Assembly: GCF_005517195.1 (NCBI RefSeq) | Contig: NZ_CP040244.1 | Coordinates: forward strand, 62,001 to 126,000 | Direction: 5' to 3' | From: Streptomyces vilmorinianum | Lineage (GTDB): Bacteria; Actinomycetota; Actinomycetes; Streptomycetales; Streptomycetaceae | DNA length: 64,000 nt | In this document: piece after piece, positions 2 through 12,375 of the stretch | Layout of the letters: every line of letters starts with the position of its first letter | Numbering within the stretch: the stretch's first letter is position 1 | The notes under the pieces: generated by a model | Told to the model about the DNA's origin: nothing | The model's input: the letters and a program-made list of their open reading frames with translations, nothing else | The model's database searches: none | Translations under genes and position numbers: made by a program

Positions 2-1003
2 GCGTACGAGCCGATAGCGGACCCCGAGCCGGCGTTCCCTGAGGCGACGGTCCCCGAGGCGCCGTACGAGCCGTACGAGCCGTACGAGACCGCCTACGAG
101 CCCGTCTACGAGCCCGTCTACGAGCTCCCCGAGCCGCGGGACGAGACGATGCCCCTGCGGACCGTGGAACAGGCCGTGACGCCGCCTCCCGGCCCCGGCA
201 GGGCCGAGCGCCGGCGCGCCGCCAAGGGGAAGGGCCGCCGAGGCGCGGCGGCTGCCGCGTCCGCGCCGGCCGCGGAGACGCCCGCGGCCCCGCTGTCCCG
301 CGTCGAGGCCCGCCGCGCGGCGCGCGCCGCGAAGGAGAGCGTCGGGGTCGTCGCCAGCCGGGTGGTCGGCGAGCTGTTCATCACCTTCGGCGTGGTCATG
401 CTGCTGTTCGTCACGTACCAGCTGTGGTGGACGAACGTCCGGGCCGGCCAGCAGACCGACAAGGCCAAGGAACAGATCGAGGAGGCCTGGTCCCAGGGCC
501 GCGCACCGGGCGCCTTCGAGCCGGGTCAGGGCTTCGCCATCATGTACATCCCCAAGCTGGACGTGGTCGTCCCGGTCGCCGAGGGCATCAGCAAGCCGAA
601 GGTCCTGGACCGGGGCATGGTCGGCCACTACGGCGAGGGCAAGCTGAAGACCGCGATGCCCTCCGACAAGCAGGGCAACTTCGCGGTGGCCGGCCACCGC
701 AACACGCACGGCGAGCCGTTCCGGTACATCAACCAGCTGAAGAGCGGCGACCCGATCGTGGTCGAGACCCAGGACGCGTACTACACGTACGAGATGGCGA
801 GCATCCTGCCCCAGACCTCGCCGTCGAACATCGCGGTGATCGACCCGGTGCCGAAGGGATCGGGCTTCCAGGGTCCGGGCCGGTACATCACGCTGACCAC
901 GTGCACCCCCGAATTCACCAGCACGTACCGCATGATCGTGTGGGGAAAGCTGGTCGAGGAACGCCCGCGCAGCAAGGGAAAGCCGGACGCGCTCGTAGGC
1001 TGA
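2..1003 (+). CDS. Class E sortase, N-terminus cut by window edge
   Basis: A cysteine transpeptidase of the cell envelope that would anchor surface proteins carrying an LAXTG-like signal. The frame is open to the left edge and no start codon is seen before the ATG at 149, so the gene begins outside the window. The visible N-terminus is a Tyr-Glu-Pro-rich stretch (repeats of PYE and PVYE), then a basic region and one membrane segment (VVMLLFVTYQLWW), then the sortase domain. The catalytic triad is visible: His in AGHRNTHG (codon 695-697), Cys in TLTTCTP (902-904) and Arg in TYRMIVWG (929-931). The TLTTCTP motif is typical of class E. A second sortase follows after 46 bp, which matches the SrtE1/SrtE2 pair known from Streptomyces chaplin anchoring. 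No sortase substrate is seen in this window. Confidence 0.9.
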   Translation, partial: AYEPIADPEPAFPEATVPEAPYEPYEPYETAYEPVYEPVYELPEPRDETMPLRTVEQAVTPPPGPGRAERRRAAKGKGRRGAAAAASAPAAETPAAPLSRVEARRAARAAKESVGVVASRVVGELFITFGVVMLLFVTYQLWWTNVRAGQQTDKAKEQIEEAWSQGRAPGAFEPGQGFAIMYIPKLDVVVPVAEGISKPKVLDRGMVGHYGEGKLKTAMPSDKQGNFAVAGHRNTHGEPFRYINQLKSGDPIVVETQDAYYTYEMASILPQTSPSNIAVIDPVPKGSGFQGPGRYITLTTCTPEFTSTYRMIVWGKLVEERPRSKGKPDALVG

Positions 1004-1805: not shown

Positions 1806-3779
1806 CTAGTCGAAGAAGCCGCCGCCGTCCCTCTTCTCGGTCTTCACGTTGACCGGCTGGTTCGGCTGGCCCTGTGCGCCGGGCAGGGGATCCTGCTGCC
1901 GGATCCGGGCGTCACCCGCGTCGGAACCGTCGATGCTGCCGAGCTGGTAGCCGCTCGCGGCCAGCGTCGTGCGGGCCTCGTCGAGGGTCTGGCCGATGAT
2001 GAAGGGCACCGGCTGCGTGTTCTGCTGCGGGCCCTTGGAGACCTTCAGCGTGATCTGGACGTCCTTGGGCTGGTCCGTGTTGCCCTGCGGGTTCATGCCG
2101 ACGACCGTGTTCGCGGGCTGCTCGGAGTCGACCTCCTGCCTGGCGACGTTCTCGAAGCCGAGCGTCTTGAGGTCCTGGACGGCCTGGTCGAAGAGGCGGC
2201 CCGTGACGTCGGGCAGCTGCGACTTCTCCTTCTTCGCCACCGTGATCGTGACCGTGGAGTTCTTCTCCGCGTTGGTGTTGCCCGCAGGGTTCTGCCGCAG
2301 GACCTGGCCCGGGTCCTCGTCCGACTCCTCCTGCTTGACCTCGACCTTGAAGCCCTTGTCCTTGAGGAGCTGCTCCGCGCTCTCCTGGGACTTCTCCGTC
2401 ACGTCCGGGACCTCGACCTGCGGCGCGCCCTCGGAGACGACGACCGAGATCGTCTCGTTGACGTCCATCTTCGCGACGCCGTCCGCGACCGGGACCTGGC
2501 TGCAGATCGTGCCCTTGGGCTGCTCGCAGCGCTCCGCGCCCGACTGCGTGACCTTGACCTGGGCGTTGGCCGCGAGGCCCTCGGCCTCCTTCAAGGTCTT
2601 GCCGACCAGCTGCGGCACGGGCACCTGGTCCGTGCCCTCCTTGCCGTCGAAGATCGATTGGCCGATCAGGATCGCTCCGACCAGCACCAGGATGCCCGCG
2701 AGCACCAGCAGGATCGTCGAGGTGTTCGACTTCTTCTCGCGGCGGCGACGGTCCGGGCGGTCGTCGTAGCCGTAGCCGCCGTCGTCCGGGTTCATCGGCG
2801 GGAGCATGGAGGTCTGGCCGGCCGGGTCGGTCTGGCGCAGGGCCGTCGTCGGCTGGTCGTCCGGCGCGTAGCCGCCGTAGCCGTTGCCGTAACCGCCGCC
2901 GTACCCCGCCGCACCCATCGCCGCGGCCGCCGCGACCGGCTGGCCGTCGAGGCAGGCCTCGATGTCGGCGCGCATCTCGTCCGCGGACTGGTAGCGGTAG
3001 TCGGGGTCCTTGACCAGCGCCTTCAGGACGATGGCGTCCATCGAGGGCGTGATCTCGGGGTCGAAGTTCGACGGGGGCTGCGGCTCCTCCCGTACGTGCT
3101 GATAGGCGACCGCGACCGGGGAGTCGCCGACGAACGGCGGCCGGACGGTCAGCAGCTCGTACAGCAGGCAGCCGGTGGAGTACAGGTCGGAGCGGGCGTC
3201 GACCTGCTCGCCCTTGGCCTGCTCGGGGGAGAGGTACTGGGCCGTGCCGATGACGGCCGCGGTCTGCGTCATGGTCATGCCCGCGTCGCCCATGGCGCGC
3301 GCGATGCCGAAGTCCATGACCTTGACCTGACCGGTCCGCGTCAGCATGACGTTCGCCGGCTTGATGTCACGGTGCACGATGCCGGCGCGGTGCGAGTACT
3401 CCAGCGCCTGGAGGATGCCGACCGTCATCTCGAGCGTGCGCTCGGGCAGCAGCTTGCGCCCGGAGTGCAGCAGCTCACGCAGGGTCGAGCCGTCGACGTA
3501 CTCCATCACGATGTACGGGATGGAGACCCCGTCGACGTAGTCCTCGCCGGTGTCGTAGACCGCGACGATCGCCGGGTGGTTGAGCGAGGCGGCCGACTGG
3601 GCCTCACGGCGGAACCGGGCCTGGAAGGACGGGTCGCGGGCGAGGTCGGCCCGCAGCGTCTTCACGGCGACGGTGCGGCCGAGCCGGGTGTCGTGGGCGA
3701 GGTAGACCTCTGCCATGCCACCACGGCCGAGCACCGAGCCCAGCTCGTACCGGCCGCCGAGGCGACGCGGCTCTTCCAT
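1806..3779 (-). CDS. pknB: Ser/Thr protein kinase PknB with four PASTA repeats
   Basis: A 657-residue membrane Ser/Thr kinase that senses peptidoglycan or lipid II and phosphorylates envelope and division proteins. The kinase domain covers about residues 11-275, with a Gly-rich loop (LGRGGMAEV), Lys40, the HRD Asp at 138 and DFG at 156-158. A Gly/Tyr-rich juxtamembrane linker follows, then one membrane segment at about 353-373, then four PASTA repeats to the C-terminus. I chose ATG 3779 because the protein then begins MEEPRRLGGRYEL, as I recall for Streptomyces PknB; the frame stays open for 28 more codons upstream. It is the last gene of the fhaA-to-pknB operon, 163 bp after pbpA, so it may also have its own promoter. 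Confidence 0.96.
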   Translation of the reverse strand: MEEPRRLGGRYELGSVLGRGGMAEVYLAHDTRLGRTVAVKTLRADLARDPSFQARFRREAQSAASLNHPAIVAVYDTGEDYVDGVSIPYIVMEYVDGSTLRELLHSGRKLLPERTLEMTVGILQALEYSHRAGIVHRDIKPANVMLTRTGQVKVMDFGIARAMGDAGMTMTQTAAVIGTAQYLSPEQAKGEQVDARSDLYSTGCLLYELLTVRPPFVGDSPVAVAYQHVREEPQPPSNFDPEITPSMDAIVLKALVKDPDYRYQSADEMRADIEACLDGQPVAAAAAMGAAGYGGGYGNGYGGYAPDDQPTTALRQTDPAGQTSMLPPMNPDDGGYGYDDRPDRRRREKKSNTSTILLVLAGILVLVGAILIGQSIFDGKEGTDQVPVPQLVGKTLKEAEGLAANAQVKVTQSGAERCEQPKGTICSQVPVADGVAKMDVNETISVVVSEGAPQVEVPDVTEKSQESAEQLLKDKGFKVEVKQEESDEDPGQVLRQNPAGNTNAEKNSTVTITVAKKEKSQLPDVTGRLFDQAVQDLKTLGFENVARQEVDSEQPANTVVGMNPQGNTDQPKDVQITLKVSKGPQQNTQPVPFIIGQTLDEARTTLAASGYQLGSIDGSDAGDARIRQQDPLPGAQGQPNQPVNVKTEKRDGGGFFD

Positions 3780-3942
3780 AGCTAATCCAGCCCTCTCCGT
3801 CTGTCCCGACCGCACCCGTGTGTGGTCCGGCGGTGTGCTGTTCGCGCAAAGGCTACCGGCCACAGGAAGGCGTTCCGCCCGCGACCGGCACCTGATACAG
3901 GACCGGTACCTGGCCGCTGCCCGCCGGTGCCCGGGCGCAAGG

Positions 3943-5409
3943 TCAGCTCCGGCTCTTCAATACCGCCTTCATCACAGCCTTGGCGATCGGGGCGGCGAGA
4001 CCGCCACCGCTGATGTCCTCACGGTCCGTGCCCGCGGAGTCCTCGACGATCACGGCGACCGCGACCGGGGAGCCCTCGGCGGTCTTGGCGTAGGAGATGA
4101 ACCAGGCGTAGGGGCGCTTGGCGTTCTTCTCGCCGTGCTGGGCCGTGCCGGTCTTGCCGCCGATCTTCACGCCGTCCATGTCGAGGTCGGCGTTGCCGCC
4201 CGTGCCGTTCTCGACCACGTTCTCCATCATCGTCTGGATCAGCTGGGCGTTCTGCTGCGACAGCGGACGGCTCATCTCCTCGGGCTCGTTCCGCTTGATC
4301 ACGTCGAGGTTCGGGGCGCGCAGCTCCTCGACCATGTACGGCTGCATGAGCTTGCCGTCGTTGGCGATGGCCGCCGTGACCATGGCCATCTGGAGGGGCG
4401 TGGTCGCGGTGTTGAACTGGCCGATCGAGGAGAGCGCGTTGCCGCCGCGGTCCATCTTCTTGTCGTAGACGGAGGCCGCCGAGCGGACCGGGGTGAACTG
4501 CTCGGCGTTGAAGCCGAACTTCTCGGCCGTCTCGATCATCGCGTCGCGGCCGACCTCGTCACCGAGCTTGGCGAAGACCGAGTTGCAGGAGACCCGCAGC
4601 GCCTCGTTCAGGCTGGCGTTCTTGCAGCCGCTCGCGTGGTTCTTCATCGGCACCCTGGAGAGCGGGATGTTGTACGGCTCAGGGGTGTCGGTCGGCGCGT
4701 CGATGTCCGTGATCTTGCCGTGCTCCAGCGCTGCGGCCGCCGTGACGACCTTGAAGACGGAGCCGGGCGGGTAGATCTCGCGCAGCGCGCGGTTGAGCTT
4801 CGGCTTGTTCTTGTCGTTCTCCAGCGCGATCCACGCCTTCTCGTCCTTCGCCGAGTAGCCCGCGAAGGAGGAGGGGTCGTACGAGGGGGTGGACGCCAGC
4901 GCGAGGATCTTGCCGGTCTTCGGCTCGATGGCCACGACCGCGCCCGTATTGCTGCCCAGGCCCTCGAAGGCGGCCTTCTGCGCGGCGCCGCTCAGCGTCG
5001 TGACGACGTCGCCGCCCTTCTTCTCCTCGCCCGTGAACATCGACAGGGTGCGGTCGAAGAAGAGCCGGTCGTCGTTGCCGGTGAGGATGCCGTCCTCGAT
5101 CTTCTCGATCTGGTTGGCGTCGTAGGCCTGCGAGGCGTAGCCGGTCACCGGCGCCCACATCGGGCCGTCGACGTAGGTCCGCTTGAACCGGTAGTACGGG
5201 TCCTTGGAGTCCACGGAGCCGGTGATGGGCTTGCCGTCCACGATGATGTTGCCTCGGACGTTGGCGTACCGCTCGATCGTGACGCGCCGGTTCTTCGGGT
5301 GGGCGTTCAGCTCGTCGGCGCGGACGTACTGGAGCCAGTTGTCCCGGATCAGCAGGGCGAGGACCAGCAGGCCGCAGAAGATCGCGACCCGGCGCAGGGG
5401 CTTGTTCAC
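3943..5409 (-). CDS. pbpA: Penicillin-binding protein, class B transpeptidase PbpA
   Basis: A 488-residue D,D-transpeptidase that cross-links peptidoglycan outside the membrane. A single N-terminal membrane anchor (about residues 7-23) is followed by a dimerisation region and the transpeptidase domain. The active-site motifs are visible: SVFK at 217-220 (Ser217 nucleophile), SCN at 274-276 and KTGTA at 419-423. The GTG start overlaps the stop of the upstream rodA-like gene by GTGA, so the two are translationally coupled. This pairing of an SEDS polymerase with a class B PBP gives a complete peptidoglycan synthase, and the operon also encodes a kinase, a phosphatase and two FHA proteins that could regulate it. 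Confidence 0.95.
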   Translation of the reverse strand: MNKPLRRVAIFCGLLVLALLIRDNWLQYVRADELNAHPKNRRVTIERYANVRGNIIVDGKPITGSVDSKDPYYRFKRTYVDGPMWAPVTGYASQAYDANQIEKIEDGILTGNDDRLFFDRTLSMFTGEEKKGGDVVTTLSGAAQKAAFEGLGSNTGAVVAIEPKTGKILALASTPSYDPSSFAGYSAKDEKAWIALENDKNKPKLNRALREIYPPGSVFKVVTAAAALEHGKITDIDAPTDTPEPYNIPLSRVPMKNHASGCKNASLNEALRVSCNSVFAKLGDEVGRDAMIETAEKFGFNAEQFTPVRSAASVYDKKMDRGGNALSSIGQFNTATTPLQMAMVTAAIANDGKLMQPYMVEELRAPNLDVIKRNEPEEMSRPLSQQNAQLIQTMMENVVENGTGGNADLDMDGVKIGGKTGTAQHGEKNAKRPYAWFISYAKTAEGSPVAVAVIVEDSAGTDREDISGGGLAAPIAKAVMKAVLKSRS

Positions 5410-6836
5410 GGACGGACCACCTGGGTCATTTCGGCGTCGGGGGACGGGGCGGGGGCGGGCGCCGGGCGGCGCGCGGTGTCGCTGATCCGGATCAGGATGC
5501 CGATCAGGGCCCAGTTGGCGATCACGGAGGAACCGCCGTACGCGAGGAACGGCATGGTCATACCGGTCAGCGGGATGAGGCCCATCACACCGCCGGCGAC
5601 GACGAAGACCTGGAGCGCGAAGGCGCCGGACAGGCCCATCGCGAGCAGCTTGCCGAACGGGTCGCGGGCCGCCAGGGCCGTGCGGACACCACGCTCGATG
5701 ATCAGCCCGTACAGGAGCAGGAAGACCATGACGCCGGCCAGGCCGAGCTCCTCGCCGACGGTGGCGAAGATGAAGTCGGAGTTGGCCGCGAAGCCGATGA
5801 GGTCCGAGTTGCCCTGGCCGAGGCCGGTGCCGAGGATGCCGCCGGAACCGAAGGACATCAGCACCTGGGTCATCTGGTCACAGGCGGCGGCCATGTTGGA
5901 GCCCTCGGGCGCCGTCTTCAGGCACTCGAACGGGTCGAGCCAGGCGGCCACGCGGGACTTGACGTGGGTGGCGGTGGAGCCGACCACCACGGCACCGGCG
6001 GTCGACATCAGCAGACCCATGACGACCCAGCTGGTCCGCTCCGTCGCCACGTACAGCATGATCACGAACATGCCGAAGAAGAGGAGCGAGGTACCGAGGT
6101 CGTTCTCGAAGACCAGGATGAGGAGGCTGACGGCCCAGATGGTGAGGATCGGGCCGAGGTCACGGCCACGCGGCAGGTAGAGGCCCATGAAGCGGCGGCT
6201 GGCCAGGGCCAGTGCGTCCCGTTTCACCATCAGATAGCCGGAGAAGAAGACCGCCAGGATGATCTTGGCGAACTCGCCGGGCTGGATGGAGAATCCGGCG
6301 ACGCTGATCCAGATCTTGGCACCGAGGACGTCGGCACCGAGGCCCGGTACCAACGGCAGCAGCAGCAGGACGAGGGCCGCCACCATCGAGATGTACGTGT
6401 AGCGCTGGAGGACCCGGTGGTCCTTCAGGAGCAGCAGGACGCCCACGAACATGGCGACGGCGATCGCCGAGTACAGCATCTGGCTGGGGGCGTCGGGGCT
6501 GAACGTCTTGTACCGGTTGATGATGCGCGGCGACTGGTCCAGGCGCCAGATCAGTACCAGGCCCATCCCGTTCAGCAGGGTCGCCAGCGGCAGCAGCAGT
6601 GGGTCCGCGTACGGCGCGAACTTGCGCACCACGAGGTGGGCGACGCTCGCGAGCAGGCCGAGCCCGAGCCCGTACCCGAGCATGCCCGCGGGCACCTCGC
6701 CGTCGATCGCCAGGCCGACGTTGAGGTACGCGAACACCGGGATGGCGACGGCGAACGCGAGCAGCGCCAGCTCGGTGTTGCGGCGGCTCGGCGCCTCGAT
6801 GGCGCCGATCGTGGTCGTGTTGGTGACAACGCTCAT
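5406..6836 (-). CDS. FtsW/RodA/SpoVE-family peptidoglycan polymerase
   Basis: A 476-residue polytopic SEDS glycosyltransferase with about ten to twelve membrane segments. Recognisable SEDS stretches include GMGLVLIWRLD, the GEFAKI loop, ENDLGTSLLFFG, SDFIFATVGEELG and the C-terminal GLTGMTMPFLAYGGSS-like signature (read here as IPLTGMTMPFLAYGGSS). It polymerises lipid II and works with the partner PbpA, encoded next and overlapping by four bases. In Mycobacterium the matching gene of the pknAB operon is called rodA. Streptomyces has several SEDS paralogues, so I give no symbol. The start ATG 6836 follows the phosphatase stop by 26 bp. Confidence 0.94.
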   Translation of the reverse strand: MSVVTNTTTIGAIEAPSRRNTELALLAFAVAIPVFAYLNVGLAIDGEVPAGMLGYGLGLGLLASVAHLVVRKFAPYADPLLLPLATLLNGMGLVLIWRLDQSPRIINRYKTFSPDAPSQMLYSAIAVAMFVGVLLLLKDHRVLQRYTYISMVAALVLLLLPLVPGLGADVLGAKIWISVAGFSIQPGEFAKIILAVFFSGYLMVKRDALALASRRFMGLYLPRGRDLGPILTIWAVSLLILVFENDLGTSLLFFGMFVIMLYVATERTSWVVMGLLMSTAGAVVVGSTATHVKSRVAAWLDPFECLKTAPEGSNMAAACDQMTQVLMSFGSGGILGTGLGQGNSDLIGFAANSDFIFATVGEELGLAGVMVFLLLYGLIIERGVRTALAARDPFGKLLAMGLSGAFALQVFVVAGGVMGLIPLTGMTMPFLAYGGSSVIANWALIGILIRISDTARRPAPAPAPSPDAEMTQVVRP

Positions 6837-6862
6837 GGTGGTGAAAGGCCCCCTACGGGTGC

Positions 6863-8353
6863 TTACTGCTTGCCGCAGTTCGAGGCCAGCTTCTGCTCGT
6901 CCTCCGTGAGGGTGGGGCCCGGGGAGGGAGCGGCTGTGGTGGGCTTGGAATCGGGCGGGGTCGAGCCGTCCGCGGGCGGCTGGCTCGCCTGGTCCGCGGC
7001 CTTCTCGGCGGCCTCACGGCGCTGCTCGGCCTTCTTGCAGGCCGAAGCCTGCGCCGCCAGCTCCGCGATCTTCGTCTGTGCCTTGCCGAGGCTGCCGCCG
7101 GCGATCGTGTCCTCGACCTGCTTGCGCTGGTAGGGCGGCAGGTACTTGAGTTCGATCTCGGGGTGATCCTTCTCCACGTCCGAGAGCGAGACCCAGGCCA
7201 GGTCCTGGCTGATACCCCGGTACAGCGCGACGTGCTCGTCCTTGGAGCCGACGTAGTACTGCGTCTGCGTCCAGCGGTAGCCGCCGTACGCGCCGCCGCC
7301 GAGCACACCGAGCGCGAGGAGCAGGAAGAAGCTCCGCTTCAGCCACTTCCGGCCGGTGCGCGGCTTGGCGTACTTGTCGAAGTCCTCGTCCGTGTAGGCG
7401 CCGAACGAACCCTGCGGCGGCATGCCGCCGTAGCCGTGGTCGTCGCCGCTGCCGGGCGGGCCGAAGCCGCCCGCAGGGGGCTGCTGGTGCGGCGCGGGGC
7501 GGCCGAGCCCGGAGGCGCGGCCGGCCGGGGTCTGCATCGCCCCGCCGTCGTTCGGCTGCGCCTGGTTCTCGGCGACCGCGCCGACGATGACCGGGGTGTC
7601 GCTGAGCTGCCCGGCGAGCGTGTCGCCGCCGTCGACGTCGAGGACGTCGGCGACGATCACCGTGATGTTGTCGGGGCCGCCGCCGCGCAGCGCGAGCTGG
7701 ATCAGCTCCTGCACGGTCTCCTGCGGACCCTGGTAGCTGGCGAGGGTGTCCTCCATCGTCTGGTGCGAGACGACGCCGGACAGACCGTCGGAGCAGATCA
7801 GATACCGGTCGCCGGCCCGGACCTCACGGATGGAGAGATCGGGCTCGACATGGTCGCCGCTGCCCAGCGCGCGCATGAGGAGGGACCTCTGCGGGTGGGT
7901 GGTGGCCTCTTCCTCGGTGATCCGGCCCTCGTCGACGAGCCGCTGCACCCAGGTGTGGTCCTGCGTGATCTGCGTCAGCACACCGTCGCGCAGCAGGTAC
8001 GCCCGCGAGTCGCCGACGTGCACCAGGCCCAGGCGCTGACCCGTCCACAGCAGGGCGGTGAGCGTGGTGCCCATGCCCTCCAGCTGCGGGTCCTCCTCGA
8101 CCATCATCCGCAGCTGGTCGTTGGCGCGCTGCACCGCGGCGCCGAGCGACGTGAGGATGTCGGAGCTGGGGACGTCGTCGTCGAGGGTGACGAGGGTGGA
8201 GATCACCTCGGAGGAGGCGACCTCACCGGCGGCCTGGCCGCCCATGCCGTCGGCGATGGCGAGCAGCCGGGGTCCGGCGTAGCCGGAGTCCTCGTTGCCC
8301 TCCCGGATCATGCCCTTGTGCGACCCGGCGGCGAAGCGCAGTGACAGACTCAT
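6863..8353 (-). CDS. pstP: PP2C-family Ser/Thr phosphatase
   Basis: A 496-residue membrane PP2C phosphatase that reverses phosphorylation by PknB and related kinases. Metal-binding PP2C motifs are seen in order: REGNEDSGYA, IADGMGGQAAGEVAS, SDGLSG and GGPDNITVIVAD. These are followed by a Gly/Pro-rich linker, one membrane segment (FFLLLALGVLGGGAYGG) and an outer domain ending in a Pro/Thr-rich tail. I chose ATG 8353 (MSLSLRFAAGSHKG) because PP2C homology starts there and the family begins this way. The frame is open to a GTG at 8512, but those 53 residues are low-complexity. It lies between fhaB and the SEDS gene in the signalling operon. Confidence 0.94.
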   Translation of the reverse strand: MSLSLRFAAGSHKGMIREGNEDSGYAGPRLLAIADGMGGQAAGEVASSEVISTLVTLDDDVPSSDILTSLGAAVQRANDQLRMMVEEDPQLEGMGTTLTALLWTGQRLGLVHVGDSRAYLLRDGVLTQITQDHTWVQRLVDEGRITEEEATTHPQRSLLMRALGSGDHVEPDLSIREVRAGDRYLICSDGLSGVVSHQTMEDTLASYQGPQETVQELIQLALRGGGPDNITVIVADVLDVDGGDTLAGQLSDTPVIVGAVAENQAQPNDGGAMQTPAGRASGLGRPAPHQQPPAGGFGPPGSGDDHGYGGMPPQGSFGAYTDEDFDKYAKPRTGRKWLKRSFFLLLALGVLGGGAYGGYRWTQTQYYVGSKDEHVALYRGISQDLAWVSLSDVEKDHPEIELKYLPPYQRKQVEDTIAGGSLGKAQTKIAELAAQASACKKAEQRREAAEKAADQASQPPADGSTPPDSKPTTAAPSPGPTLTEDEQKLASNCGKQ

Positions 8354-8529
8354 GCGCACCTGCCCTGTCGACGCCGCCTCGGGGTACAGCCGGTCTCGAG
8401 CCACACTGCCCACCCTCCGGTCGGGAGCCGGTGCCGGTCCGCGGTCCGGACCCGACGATCCGCCGCGCGGCCCGTCGTGGGGACCGCCTCGGCCCGCTCG
8501 CTCCGCTCGCACTCATACATGACGTAGCA

Positions 8530-9051
8530 CTACTTCCGCAGCTCGATGACGGTCTTGCCGATGCGGATCGGCGCGCCCAGCGGAATCGGTGTGGCGGTGG
8601 TGAGTCGGGTCCGGTCGAGATACGTGCCGTTGGTGGACCCGAGATCCTCGACGATCCACTGGCCGTCCCGGTCCGGGTAGATCCTGGCATGCCTGCTGGA
8701 GGCGTAGTCGTCGTCCAGCACGATCGTCGAGTCGTGGGCACGGCCCAGCGTGATGGTCTGCCCCTGCAGGGCGACCGTCGTGCCGGTGAGCGTGCCTTCG
8801 GAGACGACCAGCTTCGTCGGGGCGCCGCGGCGCTGGCGGCCTCCGCCCGCGTTCTGCTGTCCGCGCTGCTGCGGCGGCGTGGCCGCCTGGCGTGCGTTCT
8901 GCTGCGGACGGGCGTCCTGGCGGCGCGAACCGCGCTGCGTGACACGCGTGCCGAACAGGTCGCTGCGGATGACCTGGACGGCCACGATCACGAACAGCCA
9001 CAGAACGGCCAGGAAACCCAGCCGCATGACCGTCAGGGTCAGCTCTGACAT
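8530..9051 (-). CDS. fhaB: FHA-domain protein FhaB
   Basis: A 173-residue membrane-anchored phosphothreonine-binding protein. An N-terminal membrane segment (about residues 10-27) leads to a Gln/Arg-rich linker and a C-terminal FHA domain with GRAHDS, SSRHARI and GSTNGTYLD, the phosphopeptide-binding loops. The linker is Ala/Gln-rich and probably disordered. It follows fhaA after 10 bp and precedes the phosphatase by 176 bp. Known relatives are PknB substrates or adaptors that recruit partners of cell wall synthesis (FipA/FhaB in mycobacteria). Confidence 0.93.
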   Translation of the reverse strand: MSELTLTVMRLGFLAVLWLFVIVAVQVIRSDLFGTRVTQRGSRRQDARPQQNARQAATPPQQRGQQNAGGGRQRRGAPTKLVVSEGTLTGTTVALQGQTITLGRAHDSTIVLDDDYASSRHARIYPDRDGQWIVEDLGSTNGTYLDRTRLTTATPIPLGAPIRIGKTVIELRK

Positions 9052-9061
9052 TGCCCCCGCT

Positions 9062-9916
9062 TCACCCTTCGGCTTGCCGGTAAACGATGGTGGTGCTGCC
9101 CACGACGATCCGCGAGCCGTCGCGGAGCGTAGCGCGGGTGGTGTGCTGCCCGTCCACCACGATGCCGTTGGTGGATCCGAGATCCTGGATCGTCGAGGGC
9201 GTTCCGGTCCGGATCTCGCAGTGCCGGCGGGAGACGCCGGGATCGTCGATCCTCACGTCCGCGTCGGTGCTGCGGCCAAGGACCAGGGTCGGGCGGGAGA
9301 TCTGATGGCGGGTGCCGTTGATCTCGATCCACCGGCGCACCTGGGCGCCGGCGGCGGGCATGGGGCCGGGCCCGCCGGCCGTGGGACGGCCTGCGGTGGG
9401 TGCCTGGCCGGGCCGCTGCATGCCGGCCGCGCCCGGCGGCGGGGCCGCGGGCATCGGCGGGACAGCGGCCGGCGGGTAGCCGTAGCCGCCCGGTGCGCGG
9501 CCCTGCTGGGGGCCGGCGGCGGGAGCCTGCTGCTGTGACGAACTCGACGCGAGCGTGCGGCTGCGTACGCGGTACAGACCCGTGTCCAGGTCGGCGGCCT
9601 TCTCCAGGTGGACCTTGATCGGGCCCATGAAGGTGTAGCGCTGCTGCTTGGCGTAGTCCCTGACCAGGCCGGCGAGCTCGTCGCCGAGCTGGCCCGAGTA
9701 CGGGCTGAGGCGGTCGTAGTCCGGCGCGCTCAGCTCCACGATGAAGTCGTTGGGGACGACGGTCCGCTCGCGGTTCCAGATCGTCGCGTTGTTGTCGCAC
9801 TCGCGCTGGAGAGCGCCCGCGATCTCGACGGGCTGGACCTCGGACTTGAAGACCTTGGCGAAGGTGCCGTTGACCAGGCCTTCGAGCCGCTGTTCGAAAC
9901 GCTTCAGGACTCCCAT
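9062..9916 (-). CDS. fhaA: FHA-domain protein FhaA with DUF3662 domain
   Basis: A 284-residue cytoplasmic protein. The N-terminal domain (about 1-125, MGVLKRFEQRLEGLVNGTFAKVFKSE) is the DUF3662 region of FhaA. A Gly/Pro/Ala-rich linker joins it to a C-terminal FHA domain (about 198-280) with GRSTDADV, SRRHCEI and GSTNGIVVD. Known mycobacterial FhaA binds phosphorylated MviN and controls peptidoglycan synthesis at the pole. It is the first gene of the fhaA-fhaB-pstP-rodA-pbpA-pknB operon. A strong ribosome-binding site (GGAGGAGGTG) precedes ATG 9916, and a putative promoter lies about 45-75 bp upstream. Confidence 0.94.
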   Translation of the reverse strand: MGVLKRFEQRLEGLVNGTFAKVFKSEVQPVEIAGALQRECDNNATIWNRERTVVPNDFIVELSAPDYDRLSPYSGQLGDELAGLVRDYAKQQRYTFMGPIKVHLEKAADLDTGLYRVRSRTLASSSSQQQAPAAGPQQGRAPGGYGYPPAAVPPMPAAPPPGAAGMQRPGQAPTAGRPTAGGPGPMPAAGAQVRRWIEINGTRHQISRPTLVLGRSTDADVRIDDPGVSRRHCEIRTGTPSTIQDLGSTNGIVVDGQHTTRATLRDGSRIVVGSTTIVYRQAEG

Positions 9917-10331: not shown

Positions 10332-10418
10332 GCGCGGGTGGCGGAATAGGCAGACGCGCTGGATTCAGGTTCCAGTGCCCGCAAGGGCGTGGGGGTTCAA
10401 CTCCCCCCTCGCGCACCA
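10332..10418 (+). tRNA. tRNA-Leu (CAG)
   Basis: An 87-nt class II tRNA. The acceptor stem is GCGCGGG paired with CTCGCGC (one G-U pair), the discriminator is A, and CCA is encoded (10416-10418). The anticodon stem CTGGA/TCCAG encloses the loop TTCAGGT, giving anticodon CAG at 10366-10368, which reads CUG, the main leucine codon in Streptomyces. The long variable arm and the T-arm GGGGGTTCAACTCCCCC confirm a leucine tRNA. A terminator follows directly. Confidence 0.96.
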
Positions 10419-10578: not shown

Positions 10579-12375
10579 GTGGACGCGTCTTCGAAGATCA
10601 GGGCCGGGATCGGCGCCGGATGGACATGGTTCGCGGCGCCCGGGATGTGGTCGCGGCGCAGGACCGCCGGCGAGGCAGTGCTCGCCGTCGTCATGGCGCT
10701 TCTGGCCGCCGGCACCGAGGAACTCCTGGGCGGCGAAGGATGGTGGCTCGCCGCGGTGGCCCTGGCCGCCGCCGTGCTGTCGCTGCTGCGCCGCCGGCTG
10801 CCGGCGAGCATCCTCATCGTCACCGGGGGACTCGCGCCCCTGATCCCCGGCTTCTTCGTGCTGCTGATCCTCGTGGGCTGGTCATCGGGCCGGTACATCG
10901 CCGGCGCCGGGCGGGCACTGATCGCCTACACCGTCGCGTACGTCCTGAACACAGCCGCGAGCCTGGTGGAGACCTGGGACCTGCAGCGGGCTCTGACCAT
11001 CGTGTTCATGTCCACGCTCTACTACCTGGGGACGACGCTGGCACCCGGCCTCGCCAACCGGTACTGGACCCAGCGCAGGACCCTGCTGCACGCGCTGCAG
11101 GAGCGCAACGCACAGCTGCTGCGAGAACGCGTGATGGTGGCGGGACAGGCCCGCCTGCGGGAGCGGCAGCGGATCGCGCAGGACATGCACGACAGCCTCG
11201 GACACCAGCTGGCGCTGATATCGGTGCACACCGGAGCCCTGGAGGTCGACCGGGAGCTGACCGGCCGGCAGCGCGAGGCGGTGGCGGTGCTGCGCAACGC
11301 CTCGGTGACCGCGATGCACGAGCTGCGCGAGGTCGTCGGCATCCTGCGCGACGGCGTCGAGGCACCGGCCGACGCCCCGCCCGCGGTGACGGGGGCCGGG
11401 GCGGGGACGGGGATGGGGACGGTGGGGGCGACGGGCCTGCCGGTACGGGCCGGCGACGCATCGGGACGGGCGGCGCGGGGGACCGCCGGTATCGAAGGGC
11501 TCGTCGAGGCGGCGCGGGCGGCGGGGAACCGGGTGGAGCTGCGGCGGCGCGGGGAGTACCAGCCGCTGCCGCCGGCCGCCGACCACGCCGCGTACAGGAT
11601 CGTCCAGGAGGCGCTCACCAACGCCTACAAGCACGCGCCGGGCGCGCTGATCGGCGTCGAGGTGCGGTACGAGCCTGACGCCTTCGTCGTGGAGATCGTC
11701 AACGAGGAGGCCGCGCACCCGCCACGGGACGTGGTCAGCGGCGGGCAGGGCCTGACCGGACTGTACGAGCGGGCCCGGCTCGTCGGCGGCATGGTCCACG
11801 CGGGTCCGGCGGACGGCGGAGGGTTCCGGGTCGCCGGGGTGCTCCCCTACGGGGTGGTGGAAGCCGCGCCTTTGGTCGATGCGGCCGACGACTTCCGGCA
11901 GCAGTCGACGAAGCCCGTGGTGGGCGACCTTGGTCCGGTCACGGTCGGACCGGCCGACTGGACCTTCACCGAACGGGAGCTGGCGATGGCGATGCGCGGG
12001 GGCAGGAGCAAGGGCGGCGGGATCGCGCTGGGATGTGGGATCGCCTTCGCGGCCCTCGTGCTGCTGCTTGTGGCGGGGGGCTTCGGTATCTACTTCCTGA
12101 TGGGCTCGATGCAGAAGGGGATGATCGACCCCGGTGAGTACGACGCCGTGAAGGTCGGCACGGCCGAGCAGGAGGTCCGCGACCGGCTGCCCTCCGGCGA
12201 CACGATCGCCACCACCGGGCTGCACGGCAAGGGACCCAAGGAGCCCGAGGGGTCGAAGTGCCTGGTGCTGATGTCCTCGGAGCTCGGGAGCAGCCTGGAG
12301 TCCGAGCCGGTTTTCCGGTTCTGCTTCAAGGACGGCAAGCTGATCGAGAAGAAGTCGTACGAGGTCACGCGCTAG
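10579..12375 (+). CDS. NarL-type sensor histidine kinase with C-terminal membrane/outer domain
   Basis: A 598-residue sensor kinase starting at GTG 10579. Four to five N-terminal membrane segments (about residues 30-155) are followed by a coiled linker and a HisKA_3 dimerisation domain with the phospho-acceptor His204 in QDMHDSLGHQLAL. The ATPase domain has an N-box EALTNAYKHA (about 345) and a G-box GGQGLTGLYERARL (about 388). After a normal kinase end (near residue 425) it continues with a linker, a Gly-rich start, a membrane segment at about 481-508 and an 85-residue outer domain (YDAVKVGTAEQEVRDRLPSG...). That last part recalls small BamE/SmpA-like lipoprotein folds. This tail is not usual for the family. 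A response regulator follows 39 bp downstream. Confidence 0.9.
   Translation: MDASSKIRAGIGAGWTWFAAPGMWSRRRTAGEAVLAVVMALLAAGTEELLGGEGWWLAAVALAAAVLSLLRRRLPASILIVTGGLAPLIPGFFVLLILVGWSSGRYIAGAGRALIAYTVAYVLNTAASLVETWDLQRALTIVFMSTLYYLGTTLAPGLANRYWTQRRTLLHALQERNAQLLRERVMVAGQARLRERQRIAQDMHDSLGHQLALISVHTGALEVDRELTGRQREAVAVLRNASVTAMHELREVVGILRDGVEAPADAPPAVTGAGAGTGMGTVGATGLPVRAGDASGRAARGTAGIEGLVEAARAAGNRVELRRRGEYQPLPPAADHAAYRIVQEALTNAYKHAPGALIGVEVRYEPDAFVVEIVNEEAAHPPRDVVSGGQGLTGLYERARLVGGMVHAGPADGGGFRVAGVLPYGVVEAAPLVDAADDFRQQSTKPVVGDLGPVTVGPADWTFTERELAMAMRGGRSKGGGIALGCGIAFAALVLLLVAGGFGIYFLMGSMQKGMIDPGEYDAVKVGTAEQEVRDRLPSGDTIATTGLHGKGPKEPEGSKCLVLMSSELGSSLESEPVFRFCFKDGKLIEKKSYEVTR

Follow-up and report, generated by a model that had tools for sequence, protein, structure and literature searches.

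We analyzed a stretch of 64,000 nucleotides from Streptomyces vilmorinianum (contig NZ_CP040244.1, positions 62,001 to 126,000 of the forward strand), hereafter the window, which contains a gene for a sensor histidine kinase next to a response regulator gene and, across a tRNA gene, a divergent cluster of cell-wall genes. The kinase continues beyond its catalytic domains into a C-terminal membrane helix and an outer domain, together referred to as the tail (Table 1).

Table 1. Genes at the locus and parts of the kinase. Positions are those of the window, residues those of the kinase.
Feature	Positions	Strand	Basis or remarks
Sortase	149-1003	+	
FhaA-FhaB-PP2C-FtsW/RodA-PBP-PASTA-type kinase cell-wall cluster	1806-9916	-	Divergent from the kinase across tRNA-Leu
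tRNA-Leu	10332-10418		Between the kinase and the divergent cell-wall cluster
AbsA1-type sensor histidine kinase, 598 aa	10579-12375	+	GTG start, no internal stop; HisKA_3 and HATPase_c; tail in 110/110 loci
N-terminal membrane domain, residues ~24-160, several short helices	10648-11058	+	AlphaFold2, hydropathy
Signalling helix and DHp/HisKA_3 region, residues 161-258, H-box RIAQDMHDSLGH	11059-11352	+	Pfam, invariant residues
ATP-binding domain, residues 299-425	11473-11853	+	Pfam HATPase_c, invariant residues
Flexible linker, residues 426-478	11854-12012	+	Low pLDDT, mean identity 0.44
C-terminal membrane helix and stalk, residues 479-513, inside to outside	12013-12117	+	Hydropathy, model helix, positive-inside in 110/110 loci
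Outer domain, BLIP/BamE-like in predicted fold, residues 514-598, cysteines C561 and C582	12118-12372	+	AlphaFold2, Foldseek, VIA, profiles, hhalign
Probable cognate NarL-type response regulator, 219 aa	12415-13074	+	Response_reg and GerE; ~40 bp downstream of the kinase

In a Pfam search, HisKA_3 (PF07730) matches residues 195-259 with 49.6 bits against a cut-off of 24 (E 5.9e-13), and residues R198 to H209, including the position of the phosphorylatable histidine (H204), are invariant in 50/50 aligned sequences. The match to HATPase_c (PF02518) at residues 338-423 falls under its cut-off (22.9 versus 26.4 bits, E 0.00012), and N348, G388, G391 and G394 of the N and G boxes are likewise invariant in all 50 sequences. 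The same search returned no family past residue 425 of the kinase.

An AlphaFold2 model of the full-length protein built with 50 sequences (mean pLDDT 80.7, pTM 0.52) places N-terminal helices at residues 26-49, 55-70, 75-85, 92-106, 110-131 and from 135 on, and it also shows a long signalling helix. Behind the ATP-binding domain, pLDDT falls below 50 at residues 427-465 and 471-482, as expected of a disordered linker, and the chain then forms a single helix (479-513) before folding into a compact domain (518-597). The highest hydrophobicity of the whole protein lies at residues 477-512 (19-mer mean 2.61). Within the outer domain the motif YDAVKVGTAEQEVRDRLPSG begins at Y521, and G527, E530 and P538 as well as both cysteines, C561 and C582, are invariant in 50/50 aligned sequences. 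All 50 also share a Gly-Cys pair (G485 and C486, positions 12031-12036) at the inner start of the C-terminal helix.

Conservation and distribution of the tail

To describe the tail across relatives we used 110 loci, comprising the best 80 of 540 relatives on contigs and 30 loci from a genome search; these were chosen by whole-protein similarity and some strains occur in both collections, so that they do not represent 110 independent cases. The tail is present in 110/110 loci, in a single open frame with the part that precedes it. In every locus the C-terminal helix is hydrophobic (19-mer values of 2.16 or more) and carries more positive charge on its kinase side, and the final 84 residues contain exactly two cysteines; the outer domain is probably disulfide-bonded. 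Similarly, among 121 evenly drawn Streptomyces genomes, 45 match the protein at more than 200 bits and all 45 have the tail (E at most 2.4e-22), a count made by comparing the protein and tail tables by eye. A response-regulator match lies within the retrieved flank in 79/80 contig loci and 27/30 genome-search loci, and FhaA or FhaB in 60/80 and, within the shorter flanks of the genome search, 8/30.

An earlier, sequence-only reading of this DNA had described a kinase continuing through a membrane segment at about residues 481-508 into an 85-residue domain, and this description holds, with the helix at about 479-513 and the domain at 514-598. That reading had named as its counter-case orthologues lacking the tail, with a sequencing error behind the junction; the tail in 110/110 loci and 45/45 genomes speaks against it. 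The idea that a sequencing error or frameshift joined two genes can point to kinase-free genes for a single helix and the outer domain, which occur in some Streptomyces, but the artefact is effectively ruled out by the same unbroken frame in 110/110 loci and by 28/30 more distant loci in which the kinase H-box shares an ORF with the tail, the other two lying at contig ends. Two separate genes elsewhere, which that reading would have taken as support for a fusion, are found only in part: kinase-free copies exist, but the eight genomes that carry copies L141-L148 also hold a tail-bearing kinase.

Among 49 sequences, mean identity is 0.62 for the outer domain, 0.51 for the N-terminal membrane domain, 0.88 for the DHp domain and 0.75 for the ATP-binding domain, and 13 of the 15 invariant columns in 50 aligned tails fall in the outer domain. 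In five comparisons dN/dS of the outer domain ranged from 0.30 to 0.92; the two kinase domains gave 0.03-0.26 and the N-terminal domain 0.32-0.48. At the level of sequence the outer domain is constrained, yet far less than the kinase core.

These values bear on whether the tail might be no more than an additional membrane anchor capped by a folded domain, serving membrane proximity or dimerisation, while the N-terminal helices do the sensing. Many HisKA_3-type kinases sense with N-terminal helices alone, the disordered linker before the helix (pLDDT below 50) makes direct mechanical signalling less obvious, and dN/dS in the outer domain reaches 0.92. However, the N-terminal membrane domain, which would then be the sensor, is less conserved than the outer domain (0.51 versus 0.62), and the invariant columns of the tail are concentrated in the latter; we therefore consider a purely anchoring role unlikely.

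To assess how widely the tail occurs, we searched with a tail profile (A2), a broader profile (A3) and a profile of more distant tails (A4); another profile, of tails including the helix (A1), was compared with the PDB. Profile A2 finds the tail in 70/121 Streptomyces genomes and A4 finds related tails in 227/392, while A3, applied to the whole phylum, matches 8/396 genomes, six of them in the genus of the window. For the first 12 distant kinases retrieved, the surrounding sequence obtained contains a response-regulator match in every case. A plasmid search returned 163 records of relatives, 119 of them on Streptomyces plasmids, and among the 40 matches listed most are annotated as histidine kinase or unannotated. 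One tail match (G025:C1:3593449-3593656) is split across two frames, and the gene looks frameshifted or decaying in that genome. Separately, a record titled Microtetraspora glauca (L064) is identical in its last 60 residues to a Streptomyces kinase (L006), and its strain label may be wrong.

The kinase-free copies (L141-L148 in eight genomes, with L168 as a ninth) are roughly 110-120 residues long and made up of a single membrane helix plus this outer domain. Helix included, L141-L148 share 38-44% identity with the tail of the window kinase, and such copies are possibly decoys or duplicates of the sensor. The Gly-Cys pair of the helix start is seen in kinase-free copies too and is absent from AbsA1. 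Outside the genus, in another family, the outer domain of one relative (L166) comes after DUF2510 and a membrane helix.

Fold of the outer domain

The tail, whether taken from the window or from single members, reaches no Pfam family at cut-off, and an NCBIfam search with the whole protein likewise gave no family at cut-off in the tail. The best single members, under the Pfam cut-off, match BamE (E 0.059 among 50 and E 0.026 among 29) and DUF3862 (E 0.19), values that stand among many chance families at that level. The stand-alone relative L166 matches BamE (E 0.0076) and BLIP (E 0.021), both under the cut-offs. Against the PDB, profile A1 has one match at E of 10 or less, the putative beta-lactamase inhibitor protein 3d4e (E 0.37), and the best match of A3 is BLP (BLIP-like protein; E 0.075), which spans almost all of the domain. 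Profile A3 also matches GLP-1 receptor chains (from E 0.079), only along the cysteine stretch, and these were taken as chance.

An AlphaFold2 model of the isolated domain (84 residues, pLDDT 84.6) has two helices and three strands. The first five Foldseek matches of this model in the PDB are BLIP, BLIP, BamE, BLIP and 3d4e (E 0.017-0.064, probability 0.91-0.99; no match at E of 0.001 or less), with TM-scores by query length of only 0.43-0.54, and the sixth match is unrelated (E 0.35). VIA places BamE first (2kxx, Z 7.4, rmsd 2.7, 69 aligned residues) and also finds 3d4e (Z 6.8, rmsd 3.1, 66 aligned) and BLIP (3e2l_D, Z 6.3, rmsd 2.9, 62 aligned); BamE, BLIP, BLP, 3d4e or OsmE make up 39 of the first 41 rows, counting chains E of BAM complexes as BamE. 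All VIA Z values are below 8, a range that by itself can reflect a common arrangement.

Profile-profile alignment was carried out with 12 of 15 BLIP-family matches in Streptomyces genomes, the partial matches L219-L221 having been left out. Profile A2 aligns with this Streptomyces BLIP alignment over 75 columns, onto the second BLIP repeat (hhalign Prob 90.1, E 1.6e-6), and A3 reaches Prob 81.2, compared with at most 1.0 against 20 column-shuffled BLIP alignments. The distant tails alone reach Prob 50.5 and five AbsA1 tails 20.8. The cysteines of the outer domain do not coincide with those of BLIP in the profile alignment.

Collectively, the BLIP profile-profile alignment, the weak PDB profile matches and the predicted structure agree and suggest a BLIP/BamE-like fold. 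We use this wording, and do not count the domain as belonging to PF07467 or PF04355, because the individual lines are of weak to moderate strength and the tail stays below every Pfam cut-off. Among the papers listed in literature searches, none reported, by title and abstract opening, a BLIP-like or BamE-like domain in a kinase. The likely fold is the new point here, the architecture itself being already known from AbsA1.

Kinship with AbsA1

AbsA1-type kinases were located by synteny, as a tail-bearing kinase near a second HPPD-like gene, which is what would be expected of the CDA cluster given the order that we take the absA/CDA genes to have. At least five such kinase/HPPD-like pairs were found, among the matches listed, in 160 genomes with a tail match. 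In one of them (L205) the kinase has 571 residues from its Met, presumably the length of AbsA1, and is followed by a response regulator, with an aminotransferase, an HPPD-like enzyme and an NRPS as neighbours. The HPPD-like enzyme matches PDB entry 3zgj, which we take to be the S. coelicolor hydroxymandelate synthase with three engineered mutations, at 362/365 residues, so that L205 is most likely AbsA1 or a near-identical orthologue. A text search of the literature for 3ZGJ/SCO3229 gave no match.

An HMM built without them found all five AbsA1-type tails (E 3.7e-23 to 2.2e-25; L205 at E 5.2e-25), and the five align with the tails of the window kinase and its relatives at hhalign Prob 97.7 (E 1.7e-12). 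By these profile comparisons the tails of the window kinase and AbsA1 belong to the same family. The two kinases are approximately 31% identical over residues 156-593. In a maximum-likelihood tree of kinase cores (57 rows, 252 columns, kinase core only, unrooted, without L240, and with some long branches that meet), a single branch (100/99) parts 42 tail-bearing kinases from 15 tail-less ones, the latter picked from search matches and not exhaustive. The 20 rows of the subfamily that includes the window kinase form their own clade (100/99), and AbsA1 stands among the other tail-bearing kinases. The window kinase is a HisKA_3 sensor kinase with AbsA1 architecture, in a subfamily apart from AbsA1 itself, and our literature search met no description of that subfamily.

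One review of AbsA1 describes five transmembrane domains, four N-terminal and one C-terminal, with the extracellular part, probably including the sensor, at the C-terminal end (PMC9739842). Similarly, a 2013 review reports five transmembrane domains and eGFP fusions that point to a large extracellular C-terminal domain (PMC3881020). Together with the conservation and the positive-inside bias, this published topology makes it well supported that the kinase core of the window protein sits between two membrane anchors, the N-terminal helices and the C-terminal helix, as the sequence-only reading had supposed for its membrane on both sides of the kinase. That reading had also suggested that the outer domain may be a second sensor. 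A sensor role is plausible, but "second" is doubtful because the model gives the N-terminal part short loops between its helices, leaving the tail as the only sizeable outer part. According to the same review, AbsA1 of S. coelicolor controls several antibiotics, its alleles triggered antimicrobial activity in further species, and its signal was unidentified at that time (PMC3881020).

A proposed route of sensing and its relation to known systems

Starting from the domain order, conservation, C-terminal helix and kinship with AbsA1 observed here, we propose by analogy, with a probability of roughly 0.6, that this AbsA1-architecture kinase uses its outer BLIP/BamE-like domain to bind a partner outside the membrane and signals through the C-terminal helix. 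The partner would most likely be a protein, since protein binding is the mode of action of the fold's best-known representatives. The long C-terminal helix would shift on binding, the shift would alter, via the flexible linker, where the ATP-binding domain sits or how it dimerises, and the balance of kinase and phosphatase activities towards the adjacent response regulator might change as a result. The neighboring PknB/PBP cell-wall cluster suggests the first place to seek such a partner, with the caveat that neighbourhood alone is no proof of function.

Das et al. 2010 regard BLIP-like domains as probable inhibitors, whose binding partner may lie in the same protein or in a different one, and point to a BLIP knock-out whose effect on morphology is thought to act via penicillin-binding proteins (PMC2954215). 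The first of these points would also fit an outer domain that lies against the external side of the N-terminal helices as a built-in inhibitor and is displaced by a ligand. However, the pTM of the full-length model is only 0.52 and the kinase-free copies show that the domain is able to exist alone, and we regard built-in inhibition as improbable. For the preferred reading, in which the outer domain binds a separate partner, CopD of Streptococcus pneumoniae offers a parallel; its PepSY domains of related fold are part of a protein that controls two PBPs, and no contact of its outer domain with the PBP transpeptidase domains was detected (PMC10653890).

Speculatively, AbsA1-type kinases as a class may read the state of the envelope through a BLIP-like tail that docks on a PBP, a beta-lactamase-like enzyme or a secreted protein, coupling antibiotic production and growth to cell-wall enzymes, with the kinase-free copies as decoys or antagonists. 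The signal would then reach the kinase from the C-terminal side of its ATP-binding domain, opposite to the direction usually taken. The predicted fold, together with related tails in 227/392 genomes (on a kinase in 28/30 loci checked), turns attention to which envelope protein the domain might bind, and the likeness to a BLIP repeat is a clue to what the long-studied AbsA1 kinase group might detect.

Among known systems, the window kinase and its regulator resemble AbsA1/AbsA2 (SCO3225/3226) in their N-terminal helices, HisKA_3 domain, C-terminal helix, outer domain of the same family and adjacent NarL-type regulator. They differ in that the window kinase adjoins an FhaA-FhaB-PP2C-FtsW-PBP-PknB cluster, whereas AbsA1 sits in an NRPS cluster, and in the invariant C486 at the helix start, where AbsA1 has no cysteine. 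The outer domain is predicted to resemble a single repeat of BLIP and BLP (PF07467) in fold, and the profile alignment shows a common start (Y....vG....v...P) and a common end (F.DG.L..K), but the domain of the window kinase has one repeat where BLIP has two, is anchored to a kinase, places its cysteines differently and lies under the Pfam cut-off. BamE/SmpA_OmlA (PF04355) and DUF3862 (3d4e) share the predicted helix-helix-three-strand arrangement, again with matches under the Pfam cut-off; in contrast to the domain described here, BamE is a Gram-negative outer-membrane lipoprotein, 3d4e is streptococcal, and neither is part of a kinase.
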